IMG/VR virus record: IMGVR_UViG_3300034012_001772
Span: 1-51,961 of that record
Direction: 5' to 3' (one strand)
Length of the DNA: 51,961 nucleotides
Source of the DNA: a virus
Below, in pieces: positions 1,414-42,415 of the stretch (the stretch's first letter is position 1; every line of letters begins with the position of its first letter). A model generated the notes under the pieces. It was not told the DNA's origin. It ran no database searches and worked only from the letters and a program-made list of their open reading frames with translations. The position numbers were made by a program, and so were the translations under genes.

Positions 1414-1655
1414 GACCAGTTCCACGGCACGGTCAGGTTGCCCATGTTATCGCACGGGAGGGTTGCATCTTCTCGATTGGCACATGGGAAGCACCAACTC
1501 CCGCAGCGTGGGCAGTCCTCACCGCTCGGAGAAAAGCGGTCACGAGAAGGCCACTCCCACACATGATTGCAGTCGTGGCATTGAAATTCACGCCACCCCC
1601 GCCGAACAAGCCCGCTGGAGACAACCGCTCGAAGTTCGTCTGTCGTGTCATTCAT
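1368..1655 (-). CDS. Cassette 1 ORF, zinc-ribbon protein
   Basis: 95 residues. A single zinc ribbon is visible: CHDC (about residues 26-29) and CPRCGSWCFPC (about 48-58), with aromatic residues between (HVWEWPSRDRF). The start (1655) lies inside the degenerate boundary attC, so the N-terminus MNDTTDELRAV is attC-encoded, parallel to the N-termini read from two other attCs. It ends inside its own attC at 1368. It probably binds metal; no specific role can be read. Confidence 0.65.
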   Translation of the reverse strand: MNDTTDELRAVVSSGLVRRGWREFQCHDCNHVWEWPSRDRFSPSGEDCPRCGSWCFPCANREDATLPCDNMGNLTVPWNWSPNVQDQRHSPAKKP

Positions 1656-1694
1656 ACCTTTTTCTTCGCCGTCGCCTGATCCGAGACGTTAGTC
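1601..1694 (-). repeat. Degenerate attC-like site at the array boundary
   Basis: Boxes are GCCGAAC (1601-1607) and GTTAGTC (1688-1694). The core CGCTCGAAG..CTGTCGTG is shared with the site at 812-902, and GCCGTCGCCTGAT with the site at 261-354, so it belongs to the same family. Its two arms no longer pair well beyond about 9 of 11 bases near the loop. It is the most upstream site and may mark where the array joins ordinary phage genes. Confidence 0.5.
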
Positions 1695-1697
1695 ATA

Positions 1698-1985
1698 CTA
1701 TTCGTCCTCTTCTTCGCAATACTCTATTTCGTTGTCTTCCCACAATTGGGCGAACTCGGGTTTTTCAATCTCGTCCAGTATGGCTTGGATTAGCAGGACA
1801 AGCATTTCGGGTTCTGCGGAGCTAAACCTGATGGATGAGCAGATTTGCTCAGGGTCTTTGGGGTCGCGTGTGATCATTGCCGTCACGTTGGCAAGCGTCT
1901 CGTTGTCGAGGTTTTCAACGGCTAGGGCAACGCCAAAGTTGGTGGCAAAAGGCGAATCTTGGATGGGTACTTTTTCAGTGTTCAT
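1698..1985 (-). CDS. Hypothetical acidic phage protein
   Basis: 95 residues from the ATG at 1985, which overlaps the preceding gene's stop (ATGA). The middle reads as a mixed alpha/beta fold (NFGVALAVENL; MLVLLIQAILDEIEK) and the C-terminus is strongly acidic (EDNEIEYCEEEDE). It is the last gene before the cassette array; its stop is 4 nt from the outermost attC box. Not recognised. Confidence 0.72.
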   Translation of the reverse strand: MNTEKVPIQDSPFATNFGVALAVENLDNETLANVTAMITRDPKDPEQICSSIRFSSAEPEMLVLLIQAILDEIEKPEFAQLWEDNEIEYCEEEDE

Positions 1986-2230
1986 GGTGGTGTGAGTGCT
2001 TGATTGGTTTTTTCTGTGATGTGGTATGTGATTGTGCGGCCATCGCGGGTGCGGGTAAGCCAGCCTTGCTTTACCGCCAGTTGCAGTGTGCGGATTTGTG
2101 GGGATGTCGGCCACAGGAGCATCTCTGCCCACGTTGCGCTGCCGCCGTAGAGGTACATCCGCAACAGGACAATGGACATCCCGTGGGGTATGCTGTCATA
2201 GAGCCTCAGAAAACTCGAAATCCATTTCAT
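1982..2230 (-). CDS. Small winged-helix-like protein
   Basis: 82 residues, coupled by ATGA overlaps on both sides (2227-2230 and 1982-1985). After a hydrophobic N-terminal helix, the segment SPQIRTLQLAVKQGWLTRTR then DGRTITYHIT looks like a recognition helix followed by a beta-hairpin wing, as in winged-helix transcription factors. A small regulator of the early unit is possible; this is inference from pattern only. Confidence 0.65.
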   Translation of the reverse strand: MKWISSFLRLYDSIPHGMSIVLLRMYLYGGSATWAEMLLWPTSPQIRTLQLAVKQGWLTRTRDGRTITYHITEKTNQALTPP

Positions 2231-2403
2231 GGAAGTAGTGTGAGCTTGTGCTTATCCGCCCAAAGACGGAGCGTTTTATATGTGGCATTAACTCGGCGTT
2301 CGATCAAGTCCTGCGAATATCCGGCTTTCCGCATATCGTTGGCGCGGATGATCTTACGCTTTTGCTCGTCTGTGGTTTTTGCTGTGGTGGAGTAGGTTAG
2401 CAT
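2227..2403 (-). CDS. Small helix-turn-helix-like protein
   Basis: 58 residues starting MLTYSTTAK at 2403; upstream in-frame codons exist but lie in the leader. Residues 14-50 (KRKIIRANDMRKAGYSQDL followed by IERRVNATYKTLRLWADKH) have the spacing of a helix-turn-helix of the helix-turn-helix-23 or resolvase-tail kind. The stop overlaps the next start. Likely DNA-binding; target unknown. Confidence 0.65.
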   Translation of the reverse strand: MLTYSTTAKTTDEQKRKIIRANDMRKAGYSQDLIERRVNATYKTLRLWADKHKLTLLP

Positions 2404-2413
2404 TGTGTTGTGG

Positions 2414-2770
2414 TTAGAATTGTTTGGCCATGTAGACCACGTTGGACTGATTGACTTTGACTTTGCCATCTGTGGCAGAGGTGATGAACTCGCAGAGGGG
2501 GGGAACTACTGTTTCGTTGTATTGCCGCAAAAAGAAACTGGGGCTATCCGGCCAGTCCGATGATTTGCAGTTGGGATTTCTCTGTTTGAAGATCACATCG
2601 CATGGAAGGTGGAACCAAGGGCTGTCTCGCATCTCGTTGGGGTTGTGCTTCCACAAGCCCATTTTGCGTAGCTTGCCCAAATCTGCTGCAAGAGACATGA
2701 TCATCGCATACGACAGAATCCAGTGGCCATCAGATTCTTCTTGAAGATGAGAGATGTCCTCAAGCAACAT
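2414..2770 (-). CDS. Hypothetical phage protein
   Basis: 118 residues. A mixture of helical and beta segments with several Trp (GHWILSYAMIMSLAADLG; SDWPDSPSFFLRQYNETV). There is no signal peptide, membrane segment or recognised catalytic motif. It sits 6 nt after the gene ending at 2777, within the leftward unit. Confidence 0.7.
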   Translation of the reverse strand: MLLEDISHLQEESDGHWILSYAMIMSLAADLGKLRKMGLWKHNPNEMRDSPWFHLPCDVIFKQRNPNCKSSDWPDSPSFFLRQYNETVVPPLCEFITSATDGKVKVNQSNVVYMAKQF

Positions 2771-2776
2771 GGTTGA

Positions 2777-3055
2777 TTATCCCCTATGTGAGATTTTGGT
2801 TTTGAGGGCCACATTCTTCGACCATGCGAAGGTGAGGTCATCAACTATCTCTTGGATGGAGTCTGCGGCATCGTCGCGTCCTTCCTGCTGGAGCCTGTCT
2901 ATGCCAGACACGGCTTTGGCAATGACGGATTCGATCTTGCCCAGAAGCTGCATATAGGCGTGCTGGACTTGCTCATCCAAGGTGCGAGGCAGATTCCGCT
3001 CTAGGAGATTCCTGAGATGCGGATTGGGGTTTGATGGGGGATCTGTAGGTGTCAT
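2777..3055 (-). CDS. Small helical hypothetical protein
   Basis: 92 residues. The ATG at 3055 is chosen because it follows a CA-rich leader (CACAACACCCAC) like those of other unit-leading genes; a longer frame to 3079 exists. The sequence is mostly helical (residues 30-80, with IESVIAKAVSGIDRLQQEGR), with a Pro/Asn-rich N-terminus. Function unknown. Confidence 0.68.
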   Translation of the reverse strand: MTPTDPPSNPNPHLRNLLERNLPRTLDEQVQHAYMQLLGKIESVIAKAVSGIDRLQQEGRDDAADSIQEIVDDLTFAWSKNVALKTKISHRG

Positions 3056-3127
3056 GTGGGTGTTGTGAAAGCGCACCATACGAAAGGCTCGTCTTGTGAC
3101 AAGCGCAATCGTATGGTGCCGGATTTT

Positions 3128-3925
3128 TTACCAAGTGGCGTTGGCGCGGGAGGCCACTTCCGTTGCGGCTTCCCACAGCCCCATGTTCACCTTCATATCC
3201 GCTTGGATGTTCTTGATGCCACGGGTGGCACGGAACGAGCGGTTGGTGGCCCTGTTGAAGCGACTGATGTCGCGCTGCCCACCACGGGTGAGGTTTTCCT
3301 GAATGCGGTTGAATGCGTTCCAAAGGGTGAGTCCTCGGTCTTCATCACGGTGCAAGTCCAGCAGCATCTGCGGGCCAACGGGGTGAGTGGCACGGTCAAC
3401 GCCCCATCGGAGGATTGCCCCCTGCTCTGCCAAGTGCAGGGCATCATCGTTGCTGACTCCGATGGACTTCCATGAGTCGATGACATCGATGACCTTGGAG
3501 GTCTGGCCAAGAATGGTGTGGCCTGCATCCAGAACACGATCCATGGTGAGCTTGTGGTGGCCGAAACGGACATCCGCTACGGTTGAGGTGCTGACGACCA
3601 TGCCGTTGGCACAGGCGAGGCGGAACACCCCAGCCGTCATGCGGAGTGCGCTGGTGCCGTCATGGCCGTTGATGACCACCATCTCCATCCGCTCGCTGCC
3701 GACGTTGCGGTTGGCAAGGTCGTCGATGCGGGCAAAGCGCAGGAGGTGTTTCTGCAACCCTTGACGCTCCGGCTTGCGGGGCTTGGCTGCGGAGCCACGG
3801 GTGACGACCCAACCTTCGCCACTAAAGGCGTCCACGATGTCGGAGGTGGGAATGAAGCCGTATCCAGCGGACAAGTGGGATGCTGGGGCGGTTGCGTAAA
3901 CGGCTGATGGTAGTGTTGCGATCAT
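3128..3925 (-). CDS. DUF932 family phage protein
   Basis: 265 residues, the usual size for the DUF932 (phage/plasmid-like) family. Hallmarks are YGFIPTSDIVDAF near residue 22, a conserved VINGHDGTSALRMTAGVFR block followed by LACANGMVV, and the downstream FGHHK element. The family is widespread in phages and plasmids and has no firmly known biochemical function. It is the first gene behind the promoter-like element at 3984-4011. Confidence 0.88.
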   Translation of the reverse strand: MIATLPSAVYATAPASHLSAGYGFIPTSDIVDAFSGEGWVVTRGSAAKPRKPERQGLQKHLLRFARIDDLANRNVGSERMEMVVINGHDGTSALRMTAGVFRLACANGMVVSTSTVADVRFGHHKLTMDRVLDAGHTILGQTSKVIDVIDSWKSIGVSNDDALHLAEQGAILRWGVDRATHPVGPQMLLDLHRDEDRGLTLWNAFNRIQENLTRGGQRDISRFNRATNRSFRATRGIKNIQADMKVNMGLWEAATEVASRANATW

Positions 3926-4024: not shown

Positions 4025-4381
4025 TTATTTTTCTGCGGCTGGCTTCAACTTTGGTCTGTCGTCGTTGAGGGTTCCTTGTTGTGTTGCTGTCAGCACGATG
4101 AAAGCGTTGGCTGCGATGTGTGCCATGTGGGATAACCCACTACCTGGATCAATGTCCTCGCCCCGAGCATATGCTGCCCAGTGGCGTCCGATTGCGGCGA
4201 TATAGGTGTGCGAGCAAACCGTAGCACCGATGAAATTCCACGGGCCATAGGTGGCTGCGCCGAAGCCCATCACCCTTGCCGTCTCCAGTAGGGCATCGGG
4301 CGGGAGTAGGTTCATCGGTGCTTTCAGTGAGCCTGCGCGGCCTTTGGGGTCGTCTGCGGTGTATGTGGGGGCATGGCTCAT
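4025..4381 (-). CDS. dATP/dGTP pyrophosphohydrolase-type protein
   Basis: 118 residues. It matches the phage family annotated as dATP/dGTP diphosphohydrolase N-terminal domain (formerly DUF5664): LLPPDALLETARVMGFGAAT, YGPWNF, YIAAIGRHWAAYARGEDIDP and SGLSHMAHIAANAFIVLTA, i.e. the His/Glu/Asp pattern of an all-alpha NTP pyrophosphohydrolase. It probably adjusts the dNTP pool during phage replication and is encoded next to the phage DNA polymerase. Substrate preference cannot be read. The start overlaps the upstream stop (4378-4381). Confidence 0.8.
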   Translation of the reverse strand: MSHAPTYTADDPKGRAGSLKAPMNLLPPDALLETARVMGFGAATYGPWNFIGATVCSHTYIAAIGRHWAAYARGEDIDPGSGLSHMAHIAANAFIVLTATQQGTLNDDRPKLKPAAEK

Positions 4382-7204: not shown

Positions 7205-7756
7205 TTAGGTCAAGTCCTCGTCATCATCGTCGAGGGTGGTGAACTCGTTCTCAGCCACCACTGGGGTGCTGCCGCCGAAGGCTTCGCCGTCCTTGCTGAA
7301 CTGCACGGCCAGAACTTCAGCGTTCACACGCTTACCGAACTGATTATCCTGCGCCCAGAGGCGAATCGTCGCATTGCAGAACGAGCCAGCGTAAGGCTTG
7401 TTATCCGCAGCCGTGAGCGGCTGGAGATCACGGTCAACCACCACGGGGCGGCGGGACGAGGAGGTGCTGACGAACATATTGGTTTCGTCATACCCGTCGA
7501 ACTCCTTGCTGGAGCCTTCGTGGAGGCACACCTTGATGCCCTTGGGCAGGGTTGCGCCCCACTTGGCCTTTTTGCACTCCTCGATGGCGTTGGCGAGGGT
7601 TTGGATTTGCGCCTTGTCCGCTGACTTGTCCAAGAGGAAAGAGCAGGAGAACTTGGGTTCGCTACCGTTGACGCTTTTGGCGACGAACAGTTGGGGGAAT
7701 GAGAGGCGCACGTTTTTAAGGCGCACCTTGGACGGATCGGTTGTTTGGTTACTCAT
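7205..7756 (-). CDS. DUF2815 single-stranded DNA-binding protein
   Basis: 183 residues. It matches the DUF2815 family of phage ssDNA-binding proteins (T7 gp2.5-like OB fold): KVRLKNVRLSFPQLFVAK at the N-terminus, KFSCSFLLDK, the GYDETNMFVSTSSSRRPVVV strand pair, NKPYAGSFCNATIRLWAQDN and a strongly acidic tail (TTLDDDDEDLT). Such acidic tails recruit replication partners in gp2.5-like proteins. It probably coats ssDNA for the nearby polymerase. The candidate promoter at 7817-7844 precedes it. Confidence 0.88.
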   Translation of the reverse strand: MSNQTTDPSKVRLKNVRLSFPQLFVAKSVNGSEPKFSCSFLLDKSADKAQIQTLANAIEECKKAKWGATLPKGIKVCLHEGSSKEFDGYDETNMFVSTSSSRRPVVVDRDLQPLTAADNKPYAGSFCNATIRLWAQDNQFGKRVNAEVLAVQFSKDGEAFGGSTPVVAENEFTTLDDDDEDLT

Positions 7757-7873: not shown

Positions 7874-9160
7874 CTACTCTGATTCTTCGATGACGGTGAA
7901 CTCGGTGAGCGCGTCCACGGATGGTTTCCACTCAGGGCGGGGGTCTGCGATGGAGGTCAGCTTCGGGCCTCCGGCGATGCGCTGGGTGAGCTTGTCCAAG
8001 GCTTGGGCGTGGAAGTCCTTCTTGTCGATGCCAGCCTCCTTGAGCAGCTTTTCAGCGTTGAAGGGGCTGATGATTTTCTTGTCGTAGGGTTCCACGTTGG
8101 CACTCTCCAGAATGGTAGCCGCTGCATCCTCATCCGTCCACTTGCGTGAACCTCTTCCGGCGATGAGCTTTGTCCCTGGGAGGGCGTTCCCTGACACGGC
8201 ACGATTGAACGCATACTCCTCGCAGGTGGCGAGCCACTTCTTGAGGTCTGGGGCGTGACGGAGAATCTGCGCCAGCTTGTCGTCGGTGATCTCCTCCGGC
8301 GGGGTGGGTGAGAGGGGCGCGGGCTGCATCATCTGGATGATGACTGGCGCGTTGACGGCAAGAGCAGCAACACGGGTATCGCAGAAGGAGGATGCGGGAC
8401 ACCATTTGCAGGTGGACTCAGAAGCCACGAACTTCAGCAGGTGGGTAGTGTTGTCCTGAATCAGTTGTGCGGGGACGCCAATCTCCTTTTCGGTGAACAG
8501 CCTGAATTTGTCCCATGTGATCTCCCAAGTGGACTCAACGCCTTTCGGGGCGTTGGGGTTGTCGCTGGACTCGATGGTGAGGTCGTCGAAGTCGTCCAAG
8601 AGATCGCGGCAACGGGGCTGGAAGATGTGCAGCCGGATGAGTGTGTCGTCGCGCACCCAGCCGTCGAGGTCGTATTCCTCGATTGCGCTGCGTGCGTAGA
8701 TGCTCATCTGCCTGTTGTGGTCGGCATGGACTTTGACGCCCGCACCGTACTTGAAGTCCACCACGTCGATCCTGTTGAGCGTGTGCTGGAACAACAGGTA
8801 ATCCACATGACCCTCATCCTGCGGACGGTAGAACAGAGGCACGGCAAGCTCCACGAACGTCGGAATGACAAAGTTGTCCTTGTGCAGGCTGGCGCAGAAG
8901 TCGCGGTAGGCTTTGCCGTGCTTGATCATCTCCTCGTTTGCTCCCGCAGGGATGGGCTGGCCCTTCATCAGGGCATCGCACACCTCATGAGCTTTGGTGC
9001 CTTCGTCAGCGTAGCGGGAACTGCGCTCCACGATGCGGTAGGCGTTGTCCTCCAAGTAGGCGGGAGATGCTGTGCAAACCGTCCAAGTCGCCGCTTTGCT
9101 TGGGGCGAGGCTGGAATGTTTGCGTGTGCCGTGTTGGGCTGGTTGTGTTGTGGGTGTCAT
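7874..9160 (-). CDS. DUF2800 Cas4/RecB-like nuclease
   Basis: 428 residues. Belongs to DUF2800, a PD-(D/E)XK family of phages. Visible are ADEGTKAHEV (residues 51-60), E104, GHVDYLLF (D120) and VVDFKYGAG (D135, K137), which fit RecB-family motifs. One Cys near the N-terminus (C29) and three in CKWCPASSFC (C251, C254, C260) fit the 1+3 cysteine layout that holds a 4Fe-4S cluster in Cas4/AddB-type nucleases. It probably processes DNA ends during replication or recombination, next to the ssDNA-binding protein. The start region (9142-9166) is identical to that of the gene starting at 10244. Confidence 0.85.
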   Translation of the reverse strand: MTPTTQPAQHGTRKHSSLAPSKAATWTVCTASPAYLEDNAYRIVERSSRYADEGTKAHEVCDALMKGQPIPAGANEEMIKHGKAYRDFCASLHKDNFVIPTFVELAVPLFYRPQDEGHVDYLLFQHTLNRIDVVDFKYGAGVKVHADHNRQMSIYARSAIEEYDLDGWVRDDTLIRLHIFQPRCRDLLDDFDDLTIESSDNPNAPKGVESTWEITWDKFRLFTEKEIGVPAQLIQDNTTHLLKFVASESTCKWCPASSFCDTRVAALAVNAPVIIQMMQPAPLSPTPPEEITDDKLAQILRHAPDLKKWLATCEEYAFNRAVSGNALPGTKLIAGRGSRKWTDEDAAATILESANVEPYDKKIISPFNAEKLLKEAGIDKKDFHAQALDKLTQRIAGGPKLTSIADPRPEWKPSVDALTEFTVIEESE

Positions 9161-9168: not shown

Positions 9169-10026
9169 TTATAGGAGGTCGTCGATGTCTTTCTGAATGG
9201 CGGAGGAAACTAACCGCATCCCGTAGTTGTTGGCTTCTTCTGCAAATGTTGCATCTTCACCATAGGTTAATGCATTGTTTTTGAAGGGGCGATAGTCAAC
9301 GTGGTGGTGCCATCGGTTAAATTTGAACACAACCTTGGCTACATCAGGGTGCTGCTGGGCCAAGGACTCTGCGAACTCTTTTCGGTTATCTGTCTCAGCG
9401 TACACCGCGTCAGTGTTCCCCCCTTTCATACGCATCGTCGATACCTTACCACACAGGAATGCGTTGAATAGGATGGTGCAAAGACCTTGTTTTAGAAACC
9501 GCAAACTCAGATCAGTATCTTCATTGTAACGCCCGCGCCATCTTTCAGTGCGCTCTGTCTCCAGTAGGATGCATGAATACACACGGGTGTTTAGGTAGAA
9601 GGGTGGAACCGCATCCGTTTTTTTACAAAACGAGTAGTAGTTCATCCCAGCCATGGGGACATTTGTGAACCGATCCACAAAATCCTCGCAGCAACGGAAA
9701 ATTGTCCCGTCTGCGACCTTGTACTTTTCGTTTTGATGCAGCCTGTGGAACCCCTCGATGTTGTCATCAAGAATCCAGTATCTCTTTACGCCCATAGCCA
9801 AGGCTAACTCCCACACATAGTTCCTGACAGGGATACTTCCCGTTCCAAGATTGCTGAAGGGCGTTACCTGTATGTTGGCATTGGGCCACTTGGCTTGATA
9901 TTCACTCTCCTCCTGCGGTTCGACAACCAAGGTGAACGGAACCCGCATATTGGTCAATTCTCTGACCGTCAGGCAGCTATTAGCCCGCCCCTTGGATATG
10001 ACAAAAACAGGGTATCTAGGGTTCAT
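9169..10026 (-). CDS. TET-associated-type DNA glycosyltransferase
   Basis: 285 residues from the ATG at 10026, which overlaps the upstream stop (ATGA). GT-A fold features follow the TET-associated glycosyltransferase family: PVFVISKGRA (6-15), VPFTLVVEPQEESEY (29-43), VRNYVWELA (67-75), WILDDNI (84-90), LNTRVYSCILL (145-155), RWRGRYNEDTDLSLR (162-176), LFNAFL (186-191), KGGN (201-204), HPDV (226-229) and NRWHHHVDY. In known phages these enzymes act with oxidised 5-methylcytosine to build hypermodified, glycosylated DNA. No TET/JBP oxygenase or cytosine methyltransferase is in this window, so the acceptor base is unproven. Confidence 0.85.
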   Translation of the reverse strand: MNPRYPVFVISKGRANSCLTVRELTNMRVPFTLVVEPQEESEYQAKWPNANIQVTPFSNLGTGSIPVRNYVWELALAMGVKRYWILDDNIEGFHRLHQNEKYKVADGTIFRCCEDFVDRFTNVPMAGMNYYSFCKKTDAVPPFYLNTRVYSCILLETERTERWRGRYNEDTDLSLRFLKQGLCTILFNAFLCGKVSTMRMKGGNTDAVYAETDNRKEFAESLAQQHPDVAKVVFKFNRWHHHVDYRPFKNNALTYGEDATFAEEANNYGMRLVSSAIQKDIDDLL

Positions 10027-10244
10027 AGGGTCATCCACACTTTTTTCTCCGCTCCCCAGTGGGACTTGAATGGGAACCACGCCGACTTGGTTTTTGGGGT
10101 GAAAGTTTGTTCTAGCCTGCTGGATAGCTCTGCCAGTTGTTCAGCATTCTCTACTCTGACAATTATTTGCGCGTATGGACGTTGCTTTGTTTGCTGAAAC
10201 TCAGGCATTCCTAGCCAGTATTCCTGTTGTGTTGTGGGTGTCAT
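10023..10244 (-). CDS. Small partner protein of the glycosyltransferase
   Basis: 73 residues, translationally coupled to the glycosyltransferase (ATGA 10023-10026). The sequence has a ferredoxin-like alternation: RPYAQIIVRV, then NAEQLAELSSRLEQ, then TPKTKSAWFPF. Small proteins with a K-T-K-S-x-W-F-P ending occur beside DNA-modification genes in other phages as far as I recall, so a modification-related role is a reasonable guess, not shown here. Confidence 0.68.
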   Translation of the reverse strand: MTPTTQQEYWLGMPEFQQTKQRPYAQIIVRVENAEQLAELSSRLEQTFTPKTKSAWFPFKSHWGAEKKVWMTL

Positions 10245-10250
10245 GTGTGT
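10226..10250 (-). repeat. Duplicated translation-start region, copy 2
   Basis: Identical to 9142-9166; covers the ATG of the 73-residue gene at 10244. Confidence 0.75.
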
Positions 10251-10897
10251 TACAATGGGGTTCTGAGGTCGTTGAGGAAGTTCTCCACCTTGTCGTCTGG
10301 CAGTTCGCGAGCGCGGTCAACGCCGTAGGTTGCGAGGATGTACTTGATGATGTCCTTCTTGCCCTCTGTGACCATGACTGAGATGACTTCAGCCACATCC
10401 TGACGGACTGCGCCGATGTCCACTGGTTCGGGCTTCGGAGCCTTGGGGGTGCGAGGTTTGCGGACTGGCTTCTTCTCTGGCTCAGGGGTGGGGGCAGGTT
10501 CTGGGAAGGCCGAAAGCTCCGCAGCCGCAGCCGCGATCTCATTTTCAGCTTCCGGCGTGAACATGGCGGCTTGGTGGGCGTTCTCCTCTGGGTCGGAGTC
10601 CTGCTCTTTCTCCGTCTGCTCGGACACGGCGGTGACTTCGCCAAGGTTTGCGCTCTCCAGAACTTTGGCCACCTTCTGCGCAAACTCGGATTGGGGGGTG
10701 TAGTACTCTGGGTTGACCTGTGCATCGGCGGGTGGTGATCCGATTTCTGCCCTTGTCCACTCACCATCGACTCCGATGTAGTATCCGGCGGGTTTCGGGA
10801 CATACTGGTTGCTGTCTTGGCGGGGCTTGGCCTTGAGGGACTCAAGTGTGTCGATGACTTCGATGATGTCGGAGAGGAGGGAACGTAGTGTGTTCAT
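10250..10897 (-). CDS. Hypothetical protein with Pro/Lys-rich linker
   Basis: 215 residues from MNTLRSLLSDIIEVIDTL. The order is an N-terminal helix (1-20), an aromatic patch (AGYYIGVDGEWTRAE), an Ala/Glu-rich middle, a basic Pro/Lys linker (EKKPVRKPRTPKAPKPEP) and a C-terminal helical domain (DVAEVISVMVTEGKKDI to the end). The linker-plus-helical-tail layout suggests an adaptor or DNA-associated protein. No family recognised. A short frame and a conserved hairpin element lie in its leader. Confidence 0.68.
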   Translation of the reverse strand: MNTLRSLLSDIIEVIDTLESLKAKPRQDSNQYVPKPAGYYIGVDGEWTRAEIGSPPADAQVNPEYYTPQSEFAQKVAKVLESANLGEVTAVSEQTEKEQDSDPEENAHQAAMFTPEAENEIAAAAAELSAFPEPAPTPEPEKKPVRKPRTPKAPKPEPVDIGAVRQDVAEVISVMVTEGKKDIIKYILATYGVDRARELPDDKVENFLNDLRTPL

Positions 10898-10924
10898 GTT
10901 GATCAGTGGTTTGTGGTCTGGTTG

Positions 10925-10951
10925 TTCGCGTTGCTCATATGAGCTTCGCTG
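10925..10951 (-). promoter_or_regulatory. Conserved leader element (copy 2) with perfect palindrome
   Basis: Matches 7124-7149. It contains the 12-bp palindrome GCTCATATGAGC (10933-10944). Its ATG opens a 11-codon frame (10938-10903) beginning M-S-N-A-N that stops 5 nt before the main start at 10897. Confidence 0.5.
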
Positions 10952-10992
10952 AAGTGGTTGGGTTGTGGGTATCGCGGTGTGGGGGTGAAATG

Positions 10993-11196
10993 TCATGGCT
11001 GTTCGCTCAGTTCTGCATTTAGAAGCTCGCGTACCTTGTTGATGGTTTCGCGGGATACTTCGACGTAGCCATCTCCGTGGTCGGTCATCTCGGCTTCGAT
11101 GACGATGGCTTGAAGTTCAGCGCAGAGGCGGAGGATTTCTGCTTTGGCCTCATCGAGCTTGGCCTGCATTTTTTGAAGTCGTTTGGTGGTCGTCAT
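10993..11196 (-). CDS. Short coiled-coil protein
   Basis: 67 residues. The ATG at 11196 follows a long CA-rich leader. Residues 3-35 (KRLQKMQAKLDEAKAEILRL onwards) form a heptad-like coiled coil, followed by a polar loop (DHGDGYVEVS) and a helix. It may serve as an oligomerising adaptor. The first gene behind the promoter at 11246-11274. Confidence 0.65.
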   Translation of the reverse strand: MTTTKRLQKMQAKLDEAKAEILRLCAELQAIVIEAEMTDHGDGYVEVSRETINKVRELLNAELSEQP

Positions 11197-11299: not shown

Positions 11300-11332
11300 G
11301 GTTGGATGGTGGTTGGATGGTGGTTGGACGAT
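11300..11332. repeat. Three tandem 11-bp G-rich repeats
   Basis: Two exact GGTTGGATGGT units and one variant (GGTTGGACGAT) lie at the 3' end of the primase-helicase gene, just upstream of the 11.26-kb promoter candidate. Runs of GG could form a two-tier quadruplex. It might act as an operator, a terminator aid or simply be slippage. Confidence 0.6.
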
Positions 11333-14019
11333 CAAAGGAGTTCATCGATCTCTTGTTGTAGTGTTGTGGTGTTTTGTGTTTCGTTGCTGAAGTCGCTTTG
11401 CTCCTTGAACTCACTCTGTTCGTTGAAGTGGTCACGGGCTGCGGTGTCGAGGGATGCGGCGACTCTGGCCTTCAGGGTTGCGGCGGGGTCGGGGATGGAC
11501 TGGAGTGCGTCCTTGTGAATCCATACCCGATGCCTGTTGCCATCGTCTACGCGGAGTCTCCCATGGAGGCGATAGCCTTCCATGGTCAGGGTGCTGCGGA
11601 GTTGCTGGATGTGGCATGGCAGAGACTCCTCCTGGATGATGCTGCGCAACTTGTCGAAGCTGATGAGGTCGCTGCCGATGAGCGGGTTATCATTGTCGCT
11701 GATGATCTGACGGACGAGTGCGGTCAGGTCGTTGGCGGAGGATTCGATGAGGTCGTCCATGTATTTAGTTTTGGGGGCCGTGCCGTTGGGGTCGAAGGTC
11801 GGGGAGATAGCGTGGTTGAGGAGGAAGGCGCGGAACCCGCCAGGGTGGTCATTGATGAGCTTGTAGATCGGGGCGAAGTAGGACTCTCCCCCCAAAGTTG
11901 CCACCTCGTTGCGCGTTTGCAGGGGTGACTGGATGACGAAGTAGCGTCTGTTGCTGTCGTCGATGGCCAAGGCATCGTGGGCGTTGGAGAAGAAGATGTA
12001 GTTCGTAATGTTCGGGACACACCTGTTGTCCTGATACTTCTGGGTGATTTCCACCGTCCGATTGGTTATGAGGGGCTTGAGCTTGTCCATGGCCATGTAG
12101 CGGGACTTGCTGTGAACACGCACCTCCTCCACGGCGATGAGTTGATGCCCTTGCGCCCACTCGTTATACGAACTGAAGAGACTGCTGCCATCCATGGCGT
12201 AGACGTTGGATTCGCCAAGGGCTGCGCTCATGATGTGCAGAAGCAGGGTCTTGCCGATGCCTTGGCCCCCGCCGATGAGGGGTGCCCACATGATCTTCTG
12301 CCCTGGGTTCTGGACGTTGTACGCGAACCAGTCGAGTAGGGTGCGCTGATGCTCTGGTTCCGCGATGATGTTGGCGAGATGGCGGGTGAGAGCTTCACCG
12401 CAGACTTGGGCGGTGGATGGGTCGGCGGGGGCGTATGAGGGTTTGTAGCTGTTGATGTAGAGTGAGCCGTTGTTCTCGATGAGGGACATCTTCGGGTGCG
12501 CCGGAGAGTAGATGAAGTCCACCACTGCGGGGATGCGAATCTCATTGGTGGCATAGTCTGTTGGCAGGACACGGGGACGGGAAAGCTGTGCGGGGTCGTC
12601 CACATCCTCGGCTGTCGGCGTGAGTTCTCTGGAGAAGGTGGCGTTGAACGCACGGGCGGAATAGGCAACTCCTTTGTCCTTGTCGTAGAATTTCTCGGTT
12701 GCGGAGATGTAGACGAACGGGGCTACCCAGTCGGGCACGGGGAACTCACCATCGTTCTGGGCGATAGCTTCGGCCCGTTGCGCGGCGTAGTGCTGGGCGC
12801 GGAGTTCCTCACGTTTGGCTTTGAGGTCGCGTTGCAGGGTGGCTTGGGTGATGTCCTCCTTGTGAATCTTCTTGAGTGTGCGGGATAGGTCGTTGAGGGC
12901 CATCGCCTCTTCGGTCTTGCTGCGTTTCGGATGTGCCGCCATTTGGTTGAGCGTAAGCTCAATGAGTTCCTTGGCGGAACGGGGCATCTTTTCCAGGGGG
13001 ATAGGCAGAACGGGGGGCGGGACATATCCGGCTTCCTTGGCCATGTGGAGGACGGATCGAAAGGTTGCTGGGGCGCGGCCTTTGGGGGTGTGGGCGAAGC
13101 TGTCCCACTTTGCGCGTGTCTCTTCCAAGGTGGTGTACTTCTGTCCTTGTGCGCTCCAGTCGTTGAAGAGGTTGAAGGCTTCCTCTTCTTCGGGGGTGTT
13201 GTGGAACTGGTGCTTGAGTCCTGCGGCAACGGCCAGCCATGGGGCATAGTCCATGTCGGGATCGAGATGGGAGAGGGTGCTGGATACCGTGGCGAGGGTG
13301 ATGTCGTCCACAGGGTTGCGCAGGTTGTCGAGTTCATCGGGGTCTGTGTCCTCTGATGCGGGGCGGGATGCGGGTGTGCGGGCATTAGCCCCAGTCTGGC
13401 GTTCTCCTGAGATCATGTCCTCGGTGAAGGGGGAACCGTTTTTGGCTACCAGAATGATTGGGCTGGATTTGGCGGGGTCGTCGTCCAAGAAGCGGGACGG
13501 GCGGTACATTGGCTGAACCATTTTGTCGCTGGAGGGGTCGATGCGCTCCAAGTTGAGCATCTGCTGGAGGGTGTGAACTGCTGCGGGGTAGCGGGTCAGC
13601 GGGATGTCTTGGGCTTCTACCACCAGACGGAGGCGGGGATGCGCTGGGGTGGATGAGGTGGTGTGGTGGAGGCTGTAGTTGAGCTTGGCTAGGGTGGACT
13701 CGACCAAGGGGAGGTTTTCCAGAAGATAAGAGGCGGGGGCGGCATCGTCGATGTCCAATGTGACCAGTGAGCAGGCTACGGCGTGCTGGGTTTGTCTGTC
13801 GCTGACTGGAAGGGCAAATCTGGCAGAGGTATAATAAGGCACCTTCTTGACTGCTTTCTTCTCCTTGTCCCCTAGTTGGGCGTATTGGGCGCGGGTAACT
13901 TCCAAGGGAATCGGGGTTGCGAGGTATTTATCGAAGAACTCACCCCAGTTTTGGGCATCGGCTTGTCGGACTTTCCCATATTGGGTGCCGCAGAAGAAGG
14001 TGTTTGGTGTCGGTTTCAT
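11332..14019 (-). CDS. Primase-helicase (prim-pol-like N-terminus, SF3-like helicase C-terminus)
   Basis: 895 residues from MKPTPNTFF; a longer frame begins upstream without a leader. N-terminal archaeo-eukaryotic primase-like core: SLVTLDIDD (84-92), SLHHTTSS (117-124), PRLRLVVEA (128-136) and PMYRPSRF (170-177). A PriCT-2-like module spans about 240-308 (DMDYAPWLAVAAGLKHQF). The helicase has Walker A GGGQGIGKT (583-591), Walker B LIAVEEV (627-633), a sensor-type YIFFSN (674-679) and DDSNRRYF (687-694), as in DUF5906/NrS-1-like phage proteins. It should unwind and prime phage DNA; the repeat-rich block directly upstream is a plausible origin. Confidence 0.88.
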   Translation of the reverse strand: MKPTPNTFFCGTQYGKVRQADAQNWGEFFDKYLATPIPLEVTRAQYAQLGDKEKKAVKKVPYYTSARFALPVSDRQTQHAVACSLVTLDIDDAAPASYLLENLPLVESTLAKLNYSLHHTTSSTPAHPRLRLVVEAQDIPLTRYPAAVHTLQQMLNLERIDPSSDKMVQPMYRPSRFLDDDPAKSSPIILVAKNGSPFTEDMISGERQTGANARTPASRPASEDTDPDELDNLRNPVDDITLATVSSTLSHLDPDMDYAPWLAVAAGLKHQFHNTPEEEEAFNLFNDWSAQGQKYTTLEETRAKWDSFAHTPKGRAPATFRSVLHMAKEAGYVPPPVLPIPLEKMPRSAKELIELTLNQMAAHPKRSKTEEAMALNDLSRTLKKIHKEDITQATLQRDLKAKREELRAQHYAAQRAEAIAQNDGEFPVPDWVAPFVYISATEKFYDKDKGVAYSARAFNATFSRELTPTAEDVDDPAQLSRPRVLPTDYATNEIRIPAVVDFIYSPAHPKMSLIENNGSLYINSYKPSYAPADPSTAQVCGEALTRHLANIIAEPEHQRTLLDWFAYNVQNPGQKIMWAPLIGGGQGIGKTLLLHIMSAALGESNVYAMDGSSLFSSYNEWAQGHQLIAVEEVRVHSKSRYMAMDKLKPLITNRTVEITQKYQDNRCVPNITNYIFFSNAHDALAIDDSNRRYFVIQSPLQTRNEVATLGGESYFAPIYKLINDHPGGFRAFLLNHAISPTFDPNGTAPKTKYMDDLIESSANDLTALVRQIISDNDNPLIGSDLISFDKLRSIIQEESLPCHIQQLRSTLTMEGYRLHGRLRVDDGNRHRVWIHKDALQSIPDPAATLKARVAASLDTAARDHFNEQSEFKEQSDFSNETQNTTTLQQEIDELL

Positions 14020-14152
14020 GTTAAATGGAGTCACAAAAATACCCCCAGACGGCTCTACACAACCATTTGGGGGCAATTTGCGCTGCTGAAGCTAACTGGA
14101 AAGTGTAGCTCCAGAAGCGAATGTGGGATGAGTTACCACTGGTGCGGGATGC

Positions 14153-28335: not shown

Positions 28336-28836
28336 ATGGAAATGCCCGATGGCTTGGAGTTGATCACCGACTTCCTCACGCCGGAAGAGGAAACCTCCAT
28401 TTTAGCTGCGATCCCCAAGAAGTCCATGCAGGGGGCAAAAGGGGATCGTAACTCTGTCCAACGCTTCGGGGCCAGAGACGCATACACTTCCGGCACATAT
28501 AACCCCACCATCCCCAAGAGCCTGATAGCCTTGGGCAAAAAACTGGTGGATGCAAGGCATCTGGCAAAGCCGCCAACCAAGGTGACGGTTAATGAGTACT
28601 ACGCTGGCAATAGTCTAGTAGCCCATATTGACAAGCCCGACTGCGGCCCCGTCATCACAGTAGTGAGCCTGCTTTCACCAGCCACCATGGTGTTTTCCAG
28701 AGACAAATTCCCGTCCTACACGGTGGAGCTACCCCCTCGTTCCGTGGTATTCATGCGAGGCGAGTCCCGATACTTGTGGAAACACGCAGTATTGCCACTT
28801 GCCGCGCCACGATACAGCATCGTTTTTCGCCCTTGA
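28336..28836 (+). CDS. AlkB-like Fe(II)/2-oxoglutarate dioxygenase
   Basis: 166 residues. The AlkB pattern is complete: VNEYYAGNSLVAHIDK (H97, D99), VSLLSPATMVF, the P-R-S-V-V-F-M-R-G-E-S-R-Y strand pair, WKHAVLP (H150) and RYSIVFR (R159, R165). AlkB enzymes remove alkyl groups from nucleic acid bases; phage versions may repair or remodel modified bases. It starts 1 nt after the scaffold stop codon, an unusual place between scaffold and capsid. A promoter candidate overlaps its 3' end. Confidence 0.85.
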   Translation: MEMPDGLELITDFLTPEEETSILAAIPKKSMQGAKGDRNSVQRFGARDAYTSGTYNPTIPKSLIALGKKLVDARHLAKPPTKVTVNEYYAGNSLVAHIDKPDCGPVITVVSLLSPATMVFSRDKFPSYTVELPPRSVVFMRGESRYLWKHAVLPLAAPRYSIVFRP

Positions 28837-40475: not shown

Positions 40476-41183
40476 ATGATCGGAGCAACGGTAGTCAGCC
40501 CAGCATACAGGCACCTCGAAAAAGAGTCAGTAAGCAGATTCAAAAAGTTCACAGGCATCACAGAAGTCGAGGTGGTCAGGTGCAGAGACAAGGATGGGTT
40601 CAACCCAAAGCTCAACCTCGACAAGCTCCTCGGGCGCAAGAAGATCGTGTTTTTTGATGTCGATTGGTGGGCTGTCCAGCCAATCCCAAAAAGCCTTTTC
40701 GAGTCTGACGCTTGGGGCGGGGTTCAAGATTCTGCCACCTGGAACCCGAGAGCCTACCCTGGGATTGACTGTGGATTGTTCAAGCTCGACAAGACGCGCT
40801 ACATCAACAGCGGATTCATGTCTTTCGATCTGAGCAACCCGCTGCATCGAAAAGTGTTTCAGCTCGCCCGCAGGTTGTCGGTTAAGAAAGGTGGCAAGGC
40901 GGTCGATCCAACAGATCAAGGGTACCTGAATATCGCGCTTCAGCGGCTGAATGTGCCGCAAACCATGTGGCCGATGAGCTTTAACTTCTACGTCCTCGCC
41001 GCAGTGTGGGGGCAGGTGCCATACATCCCACGGGTGCTTCACGGCATCCACGCAGCCGGATTCCCCCTCAAGCACAAGAAACACGCCCTCCAAGCCCAAG
41101 CTGCCATTTTCGACATGGTTCCCGCACCGATGTGCATCGAAGCCGTAAAGTTCCACCACGCCTGCCAATTCGAACTAGCATGA
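40476..41183 (+). CDS. GT-A (GT8-like) glycosyltransferase
   Basis: 235 residues. KKIVFFDVDWW holds a D-x-D metal site, followed by FMSFDLSNPLHRKVF (sugar-nucleotide region), a D-Q-G-Y-L-N-I-A-L segment and NFYVLAAVWG, then HGIHAAGFPLK. This is the layout of GT8-type glycosyltransferases. ATGA-coupled (41180-41183) to a methyltransferase, so the pair may glycosylate and methylate the same glycan. Acceptor could be a virion protein or a host glycan. Confidence 0.75.
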   Translation: MIGATVVSPAYRHLEKESVSRFKKFTGITEVEVVRCRDKDGFNPKLNLDKLLGRKKIVFFDVDWWAVQPIPKSLFESDAWGGVQDSATWNPRAYPGIDCGLFKLDKTRYINSGFMSFDLSNPLHRKVFQLARRLSVKKGGKAVDPTDQGYLNIALQRLNVPQTMWPMSFNFYVLAAVWGQVPYIPRVLHGIHAAGFPLKHKKHALQAQAAIFDMVPAPMCIEAVKFHHACQFELA

Positions 41184-42415
41184 GTGCCACACACATCCTG
41201 TTTCCAGATTCAAAGACGCCAAGACTTGAGCAGTATAAGCTGGCGTGGAAGATGCTTCTTGACCCAAGTTCGGAAGAAGAGGATCGGTGCCATGCCAAGT
41301 GTTGGCTGGCATACAGATGCGCAGATGGTGAAATATCATACACAGATTATTTAGACAAAATCAAGCCTGTTTCCCCGAATTTTTCAAACATGGTCAACCA
41401 TCGGCACGCTAGATGGGTTGTGTCGATAACAATGTCGGATATATTCGCTTCACTATCTAATGATCAGTGTGACGAGGGGTGGGTACAAATAGCGGAACAC
41501 ACTTGGCGGTACTGCTTTTACGAGGCGATCTCAATCCAACCCCCCGCAGTTACCTCTTTTGTCAGGTTAGGCGTTATTTTGGCATATAAGGCATTTCTTT
41601 CAGGAGAAGAGAACATATCGGCTAGAATCATCAAAGACACTTGGGAGAGATACAAAAAAGCGTGTCAGGTTTGGCATTGGGAGAATATGACGTATCGCCC
41701 AATGGAAGCTATTGACGATATGAAAGCCTTGCAGATGCTACAGTTTATAGGGGTGGCTTTAGGTTTAGTGCGGAAGTCAAACGCTGAATGGTGTACTCCA
41801 GCAAAGATGATGGCACCAGAGGGAGCTAGATATGATCCTTTTATCCGTGGTATTGCAAGAATGAGCCAACTGGCTACTGACAAAAGCCGAATAATATTCC
41901 CAGACCCAAATAAAACGGAGCGCGAAGCTATTGCTGACTATGCTGGGGGTGGGCTGTTTGTTGAGCTAGGTGTTGCCTCTGCGGCATTTGCGGAACGGGT
42001 GCTGGATAGAAATCGCGGGATGACCTACCTTGGCATTGACAAGTGGGATGATCACCACAATGTCGCTGAGATGGAAAAAGCAGCCATCAAGCTCTCAAGA
42101 TTTGGGAGCAGGGCTGAACTGAAGAGAGCCTCGTTTGGGGATGCTTTCAGAGATTTTGCTGACGAGTCCTGCGATGTCATCTACGTGGACGGGTATGCCC
42201 ACACGGGGCAGGACGACGGCAAAACCCTGCGCGACTGGTGGCCAAAGGTCAAAGCAGGCGGGGTTTTTTCAGGCCATGACTACGATGAGAAGTGGTCAAA
42301 AACCATTGCTGCTGTCGATGAATTTGCTAAAAGCATTGGCCTCCCCGTGGAAGTCATCAAAGATGAACCTTTTCCAAGCTGGGTCATCCGAAAACCAGCC
42401 AAACCGCACCCTTGA
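41180..42415 (+). CDS. SAM-dependent methyltransferase with N-terminal extension
   Basis: 411 residues from the ATG at 41180. Residues 240-400 hold a class I Rossmann methyltransferase core: GGLFVELGVASAAFAERVL, YLGIDKWDD, RASFGDAFRDFADESCDVIY, VDGYAHTG and DWWPKVKAGGVFSGHDYDEK. Methyltransf_24-like. The first 200 or so residues are an unassigned helical domain (RYKKACQVWHWENM). Coupled to the upstream glycosyltransferase. Glycan or protein methylation is more likely than DNA methylation because no N4/N6 or C5 catalytic motif (DPPY or PCQ) is seen. Confidence 0.78.
   Translation: MSATHILFPDSKTPRLEQYKLAWKMLLDPSSEEEDRCHAKCWLAYRCADGEISYTDYLDKIKPVSPNFSNMVNHRHARWVVSITMSDIFASLSNDQCDEGWVQIAEHTWRYCFYEAISIQPPAVTSFVRLGVILAYKAFLSGEENISARIIKDTWERYKKACQVWHWENMTYRPMEAIDDMKALQMLQFIGVALGLVRKSNAEWCTPAKMMAPEGARYDPFIRGIARMSQLATDKSRIIFPDPNKTEREAIADYAGGGLFVELGVASAAFAERVLDRNRGMTYLGIDKWDDHHNVAEMEKAAIKLSRFGSRAELKRASFGDAFRDFADESCDVIYVDGYAHTGQDDGKTLRDWWPKVKAGGVFSGHDYDEKWSKTIAAVDEFAKSIGLPVEVIKDEPFPSWVIRKPAKPHP

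Follow-up and report, generated by a model that had tools for sequence, protein, structure and literature searches.

Among the described relatives of the enzyme analysed here, the beta-glucosyl-HMC-alpha-glucosyltransferase (TAGT) of phages T6 and T2 has a GT-A fold and the T6 enzyme glucosylates HMC-DNA, according to the available text of PMC13216743, where TAGT-bearing phages that lack both alpha-GT and beta-GT (288 of 753 genomes) are also flagged as carrying potential novel transferases. A second type is found in Nonlabens phage P12024L, in which TAGT lies between a TET gene (2.8e-29) and a DNA methyltransferase gene. The closest described proteins are Aeh1ORF087c of Aeromonas phage Aeh1 and ST65p128 of Aeromonas phage 65. 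The former is listed in PMC8056088 (citing Iyer 2013) as a glucosyltransferase that presumably modifies DNA at an "unknown base", so that both this entry and the existence of TAGT phages without T4-type glucosyltransferases had already been noted in these sources (PMC13216743 and PMC8056088). Annotation pipelines label such genes "beta-glucosyl-HMC-alpha-glucosyltransferase", which implies hydroxymethylcytosine DNA.

The locus examined in this study belongs with Aeh1ORF087c and ST65p128, which share with it a small N-terminal domain (hereafter N-domain) as well as the TAGT part (glycosyltransferase 40-46% identical); however, they are single fused ORFs, whereas our locus is split with an ATGA overlap. 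The T6/T2 enzyme also matches the Pfam TAGT family PF20691 (3.7e-9) but differs in that it has no N-domain, adjoins the gp42 gene for HMC synthesis and uses already glucosylated HMC as its acceptor. The P12024L TAGT shares PF20691 and 26% identity with ours but has no N-domain and, unlike ours, a TET neighbor. The N-domain of the Aeh1 and 65 enzymes is not described in the available text of PMC2993671 and PMC8056088, and that of PMC13216743 mentions neither this domain, nor its split and fused states, nor a linkage to ParB_N; relative to these sources, the N-domain, its coupling to TAGT and its exclusion from TET appear to be new.

The window (the whole stretch of DNA analysed) spans 51,961 bases and is an entire IMG/VR virus record, in which no terminal repeats were found. 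Its TAGT gene is located between primase and exonuclease genes within a replication/recombination block, and the following features are relevant:

7205-7756, minus strand: ssDNA-binding protein, same block as TAGT (PF10991, 1.9e-38)
7874-9160, minus strand: DUF2800 (Cas4-like) exonuclease, downstream neighbor (PF10926, 3.6e-57; PHROG_69, exonuclease)
9169-10026, minus strand: TAGT-family GT-A glycosyltransferase, 285 aa (PF20691, PHROG_842, homologs, fold of a fused homolog)
9499-9543, minus strand: RWRGRYNEDTDLSLR, catalytic-region block (W, R, G, N, E, D, D and R invariant)
9760-9771, minus strand: LDDN, DxD-like sugar-nucleotide/metal motif (DDN invariant in a 75-row set)
10023-10026, minus strand: ATGA overlap of N-domain stop and TAGT start (sequence; -4 class of split loci)
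10023-10244, minus strand: N-domain (W..MPEF...KTKSIW.P), 73 aa, earlier called the partner (profile match of about 4e-26; fused elsewhere)
10250-10996, minus strand: upstream ORF, 248 aa, 5 nt ahead of the start codon of the N-domain (weakly matching PHROGs of unknown function)
11332-14076, minus strand: VapE/DUF5906 primase-helicase, same block as TAGT (Pfam)

A reading made from the sequence alone had recognized a TAGT-type glycosyltransferase by the blocks RWRGRYNEDTDLSLR, WILDDNI and LNTRVYS, all of which are present in the 285-aa ORF. A profile search returned PF20691 over the complete model (positions 1-205 of 205; E=6.4e-50; 170 bits against a curated cut-off of 27.5 bits), PHROG_842 was matched at 1.8e-42, and homologs in viral contigs were up to 68% identical. 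A 303-aa version with a GTG start at 10080 in the ORF list is a mechanical call; the ATG at 10026 is the better-supported start, judging from relatives and from the ATGA junction. In an alignment of 75 TAGT rows DDN is invariant, and ED, NEDTD and a late His show no or almost no variation. For folding, only fused and glycosyltransferase rows were used, as mixed N-only/GT-only alignments were misaligned. The AF2 model of one fused homolog (L069) reached pLDDT 84.5 and pTM 0.84, and its glycosyltransferase part matched COLGALT1 in Foldseek (3e-5) and, by VIA, GalNAc-T2 (Z 13.6) as well as hyaluronan synthase and BcsA (Z 13-14). This model and the conserved DDN together represent a GT-A fold with a DxD-like motif, and by these matches the ORF is a TAGT-family GT-A glycosyltransferase. 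Searches of the TAGT profile against PDB by sequence, and of PADLOC with TAGT and the N-domain, gave no hit.

The 73-aa ORF had been interpreted as a small partner coupled by ATGA. The coupling holds, as the TGA of this ORF overlaps the TAGT ATG (junction ...GACCCTATGAACCC...), but the idea of a separate partner does not, since comparison with other phages shows the ORF to correspond to the N-terminal domain of the TAGT protein itself: an N-domain homolog is fused upstream within the TAGT ORF in Vibrio phages 1.076.O and 1.124.O, Aeromonas phages 65 and Aeh1, and several metagenomic contigs. The ORF matched no Pfam or PHROG family; it is nevertheless a real coding sequence because it matches a profile of its own homologs at about 4e-26. 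Of 84 loci that had been retrieved by TAGT, 80 were positive with the N-domain profile (two of the other four have TAGT at a contig edge), and a reverse search with the N-domain against viral contigs plus eight further loci gave 82 profile hits, with TAGT beside 80 of them (following in 75, fused in 3, directly upstream in 2, and out of the contig in the remaining 2); both samples consist of the sequences most similar to the window and share members, so they are informative on its relatives rather than on TAGTs in general. Similarly, of 46 evaluable loci in bacterial-genome contigs, 38 carry the N-domain fused or adjacent, and in another three an N-domain ORF lies in the vicinity. Clustering of neighboring genes revealed only TAGT and the N-domain as conserved. 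The window carries the N-domain immediately upstream of TAGT, which, together with fusion to it, is the arrangement that defines what we call the N-domain-TAGT subfamily. Members occur in cultured material, namely the four Vibrio and Aeromonas phages named above, and in contigs from isolates, for example Chryseobacterium gambrini and Rhodovulum euryhalinum. At least six changes of the fused/split state were counted on a quickly built tree (three of them forced by starred branches), and such recurrent switching is a Rosetta-stone pattern.

How the split pair is expressed may be reflected in the junctions. Among 111 distinct split loci, 75 have an overlap of -11 nt, 13 (the window among them) one of -4, and 6 one of -14; ATG is the start codon of TAGT in 97, and only 19 loci show a Shine-Dalgarno core. 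This combination of overlap sizes, ATG starts and few Shine-Dalgarno cores favors coupling by termination-reinitiation. A sequencing error or pseudogene behind the split was rejected, as about 100 distinct loci have such overlapping split genes. In some loci genes are inserted between the N-domain and TAGT while the junctions stay tight; they encode a radical-SAM/SPASM protein (L043), class I methyltransferases (L003 and L105), an NPPY-containing ORF without a Pfam match (L154, L157, and L160), a second TAGT (L204), or a protein with a weak GT4-type match (L211). The radical-SAM/SPASM protein (L043, 7989-8954) has weak similarity to a viperin model. Programmed frameshifting could instead join the overlapping ORFs into one fused protein rather than two chains, and many -11 junctions do show (C/T)CC-stop in the N-domain frame, which resembles known +1 shift sites, while fused forms exist naturally. 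However, the window and 12 other loci would need the opposite frame, the ATG is kept at the great majority of TAGT starts (97/111), the codon before the stop varies among split loci, and insertions separate the two genes in L003, L043, L105, L154, L157, L160 and L211, so we consider frameshifting improbable.

The same reading had reported no TET/JBP or C5-methyltransferase gene in the 52 kb, had linked the family to oxidised cytosine in phage DNA, and had suggested that the missing genes lie elsewhere or that the substrate differs. Six-frame searches of the window record agreed with the first point, as no TET_JBP, DNA_methylase (C5-methyltransferase) or thymidylate synthase/dCMP-hydroxymethylase (PF00303) was detected, and the P12024L TET was recovered as a positive control at 2.8e-29. 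The window hence has neither a TET/JBP gene linked to TAGT nor a C5-methyltransferase, as would mark a TET-associated DNA modification system, nor the dCMP hydroxymethylase (gp42) of T-even HMC glucosylation. The expectation of oxidised cytosine and of genes that merely lie elsewhere fared worse in a wider survey, whose loci are related to one another and hence not independent. TET was found in 0 of 49 records carrying this kind of TAGT (window included) and in none of the tested isolates with the subfamily; C5-methyltransferase was found in 5 of the 49, the window not among them; and dCMP-hydroxymethylase was found in 0 of 47, the sole match to the thymidylate synthase family being that of Aeromonas phage 65, annotated td. 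Conversely, among 19 loci retrieved by the P12024L TET gene, TAGT was present in 8 records and the N-domain in none. Considering that TET is absent throughout this branch while the TAGTs of TET phages have no N-domain, the missing TET is, as far as these sequences tell, a property of the subfamily rather than of the contig. Because most IMG/VR records are fragmentary, any single absence counts for little, and the argument rests on the agreement among near-complete and complete genomes. A canonical pathway, in which oxidised cytosine is supplied by TET and C5-methyltransferase or by dCMP-hydroxymethylase encoded off the contig or in the host, would be compatible with the window, which lacks terminal repeats and is possibly incomplete, and with the five relatives that have C5-methyltransferase. 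It is unlikely to apply, given the survey counts, the different TAGT of TET phages, the absence of both TET and dCMP-hydroxymethylase from two 48-kb Vibrio phage records, and the completely sequenced phages Aeh1 and 65, which Table 4 of PMC2993671 lists without gene 42 and T4 glucosyltransferases.

An AlkB-like 2OG-Fe(II) oxygenase with an HID motif is encoded within the virion gene block of the window (28336-28833, plus strand; PF13532, 6.4e-14), and a 469-aa ORF in the late gene region (41006-42412, plus strand), labeled DNA methyltransferase in PHROGs, has a C-terminal Methyltransf_24 domain (6e-12); both had been overlooked in the sequence-only reading. As the only oxygenase detected in the window, the AlkB-like protein might supply a base hydroxyl (hmU from T, or from 5mC) for TAGT to cap. 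This is a very remote prospect, since out of 36 records with TAGT the window is the sole one to carry it, and since the protein is encoded among virion genes and has ALKBH8 and N6-methyladenine demethylases as its closest solved relatives; its absence from the 35 other records led us to reject it as a hidden TET component.

With the anatomy of the pair, the subfamily and the absence of TET being well supported, the pair is probably a split two-polypeptide form of one enzyme that would glycosylate phage DNA at an as yet undescribed acceptor, a reading we hold with moderate confidence. Overlapping genes would give rise to the N-domain and the TAGT GT-A domain, with termination-reinitiation at ATGA as the most likely mechanism. 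The two chains would then act as a complex that uses a nucleotide-sugar of the host as donor and glycosylates phage DNA while it is being replicated, with no involvement of TET. Positioning on the substrate would fall to the N-domain and, in many relatives, to ParB_N as well, and protection from host nucleases would be the outcome. The role of the N-domain is a guess because its isolated 73-aa model is moderate (pLDDT 80, pTM 0.49) and matched no solved fold in PDB. With respect to domain company, ParB_N occurs at the N-terminus of many longer N-domain ORFs: all seven hits in 50 records lie in an N-domain ORF, and in L030 and L188 a single ORF encodes ParB_N, N-domain and TAGT. In PADLOC, the ParB_N of one such protein (L045) best matched the N-terminal part of a type II methyltransferase (1.7e-16). 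A single 563-aa ORF in L061 (9596-11284) contains N-domain, TAGT and a uracil-DNA-glycosylase-superfamily domain.

We infer DNA as the acceptor from distant homologs, domain fusions and the replication-block context. Considering that the TAGTs of the window and T6 share no pairwise BLAST similarity (E 0.12), activity on DNA is not transferable by close homology. The main rival keeps the same enzyme anatomy with a non-DNA acceptor, be it RNA, a glycan at the surface or a protein of the virion or host. It would fit the nearest solved folds, which are protein- or glycan-directed GT-A enzymes, the absence of a base-hydroxylating enzyme alongside the subfamily, and the position of the gene in Vibrio phage 1.076.O between portal and head-morphogenesis genes. 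We regard it as rather unlikely in view of the linkage or fusion to ParB_N of a kind fused to DNA methyltransferases, to the uracil-DNA-glycosylase domain and to the NPPY-type methyltransferase-like ORF, the position of the window gene inside the replication/recombination block, and the activity of distant TAGTs on DNA described in PMC13216743.

Our results indicate a large TAGT branch in phages without recognisable means to make or oxidise HMC, nearly always accompanied by a nameless domain. If the acceptor is DNA, hundreds of environmental phages would carry an undescribed modification, with a bearing on evasion of restriction and CRISPR. We tentatively raise the possibility of a widespread TET-independent DNA glycosylation, in which N-domain-TAGT enzymes would add sugar to a base without TET oxidation or a hydroxymethylated precursor, by an acceptor chemistry not described before, and in which the inserted radical-SAM enzyme, methyltransferase, second TAGT or GT4-like enzyme of some relatives might elaborate the product.

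Several minor observations were also made. The window encodes a dATP/dGTP diphosphohydrolase N-terminal domain (4025-4381, minus strand; PF18909, 1.9e-28). This domain (dGTP_diPhyd_N) is sometimes tied to diaminopurine genomes, and such a (Z) genome was rejected because PurZ (PF00709) is absent from six frames of the record. In other phages, the split N-domain/TAGT pair of Vibrio phage henriette 12B8 (L173, 4590-5816) is unannotated in the public record, and Aeh1 and POP12 have an extra short N-domain ORF behind TAGT. Two loci (L145 and L156, about 1547-3186) show the reversed order, TAGT followed by the N-domain ORF, with a PRA-PH/MazG-like gene directly upstream (Pfam match in L145). Vibrio phage Kuja (L178, 2199-4918) possesses two tandem fused N-domain-TAGT genes.
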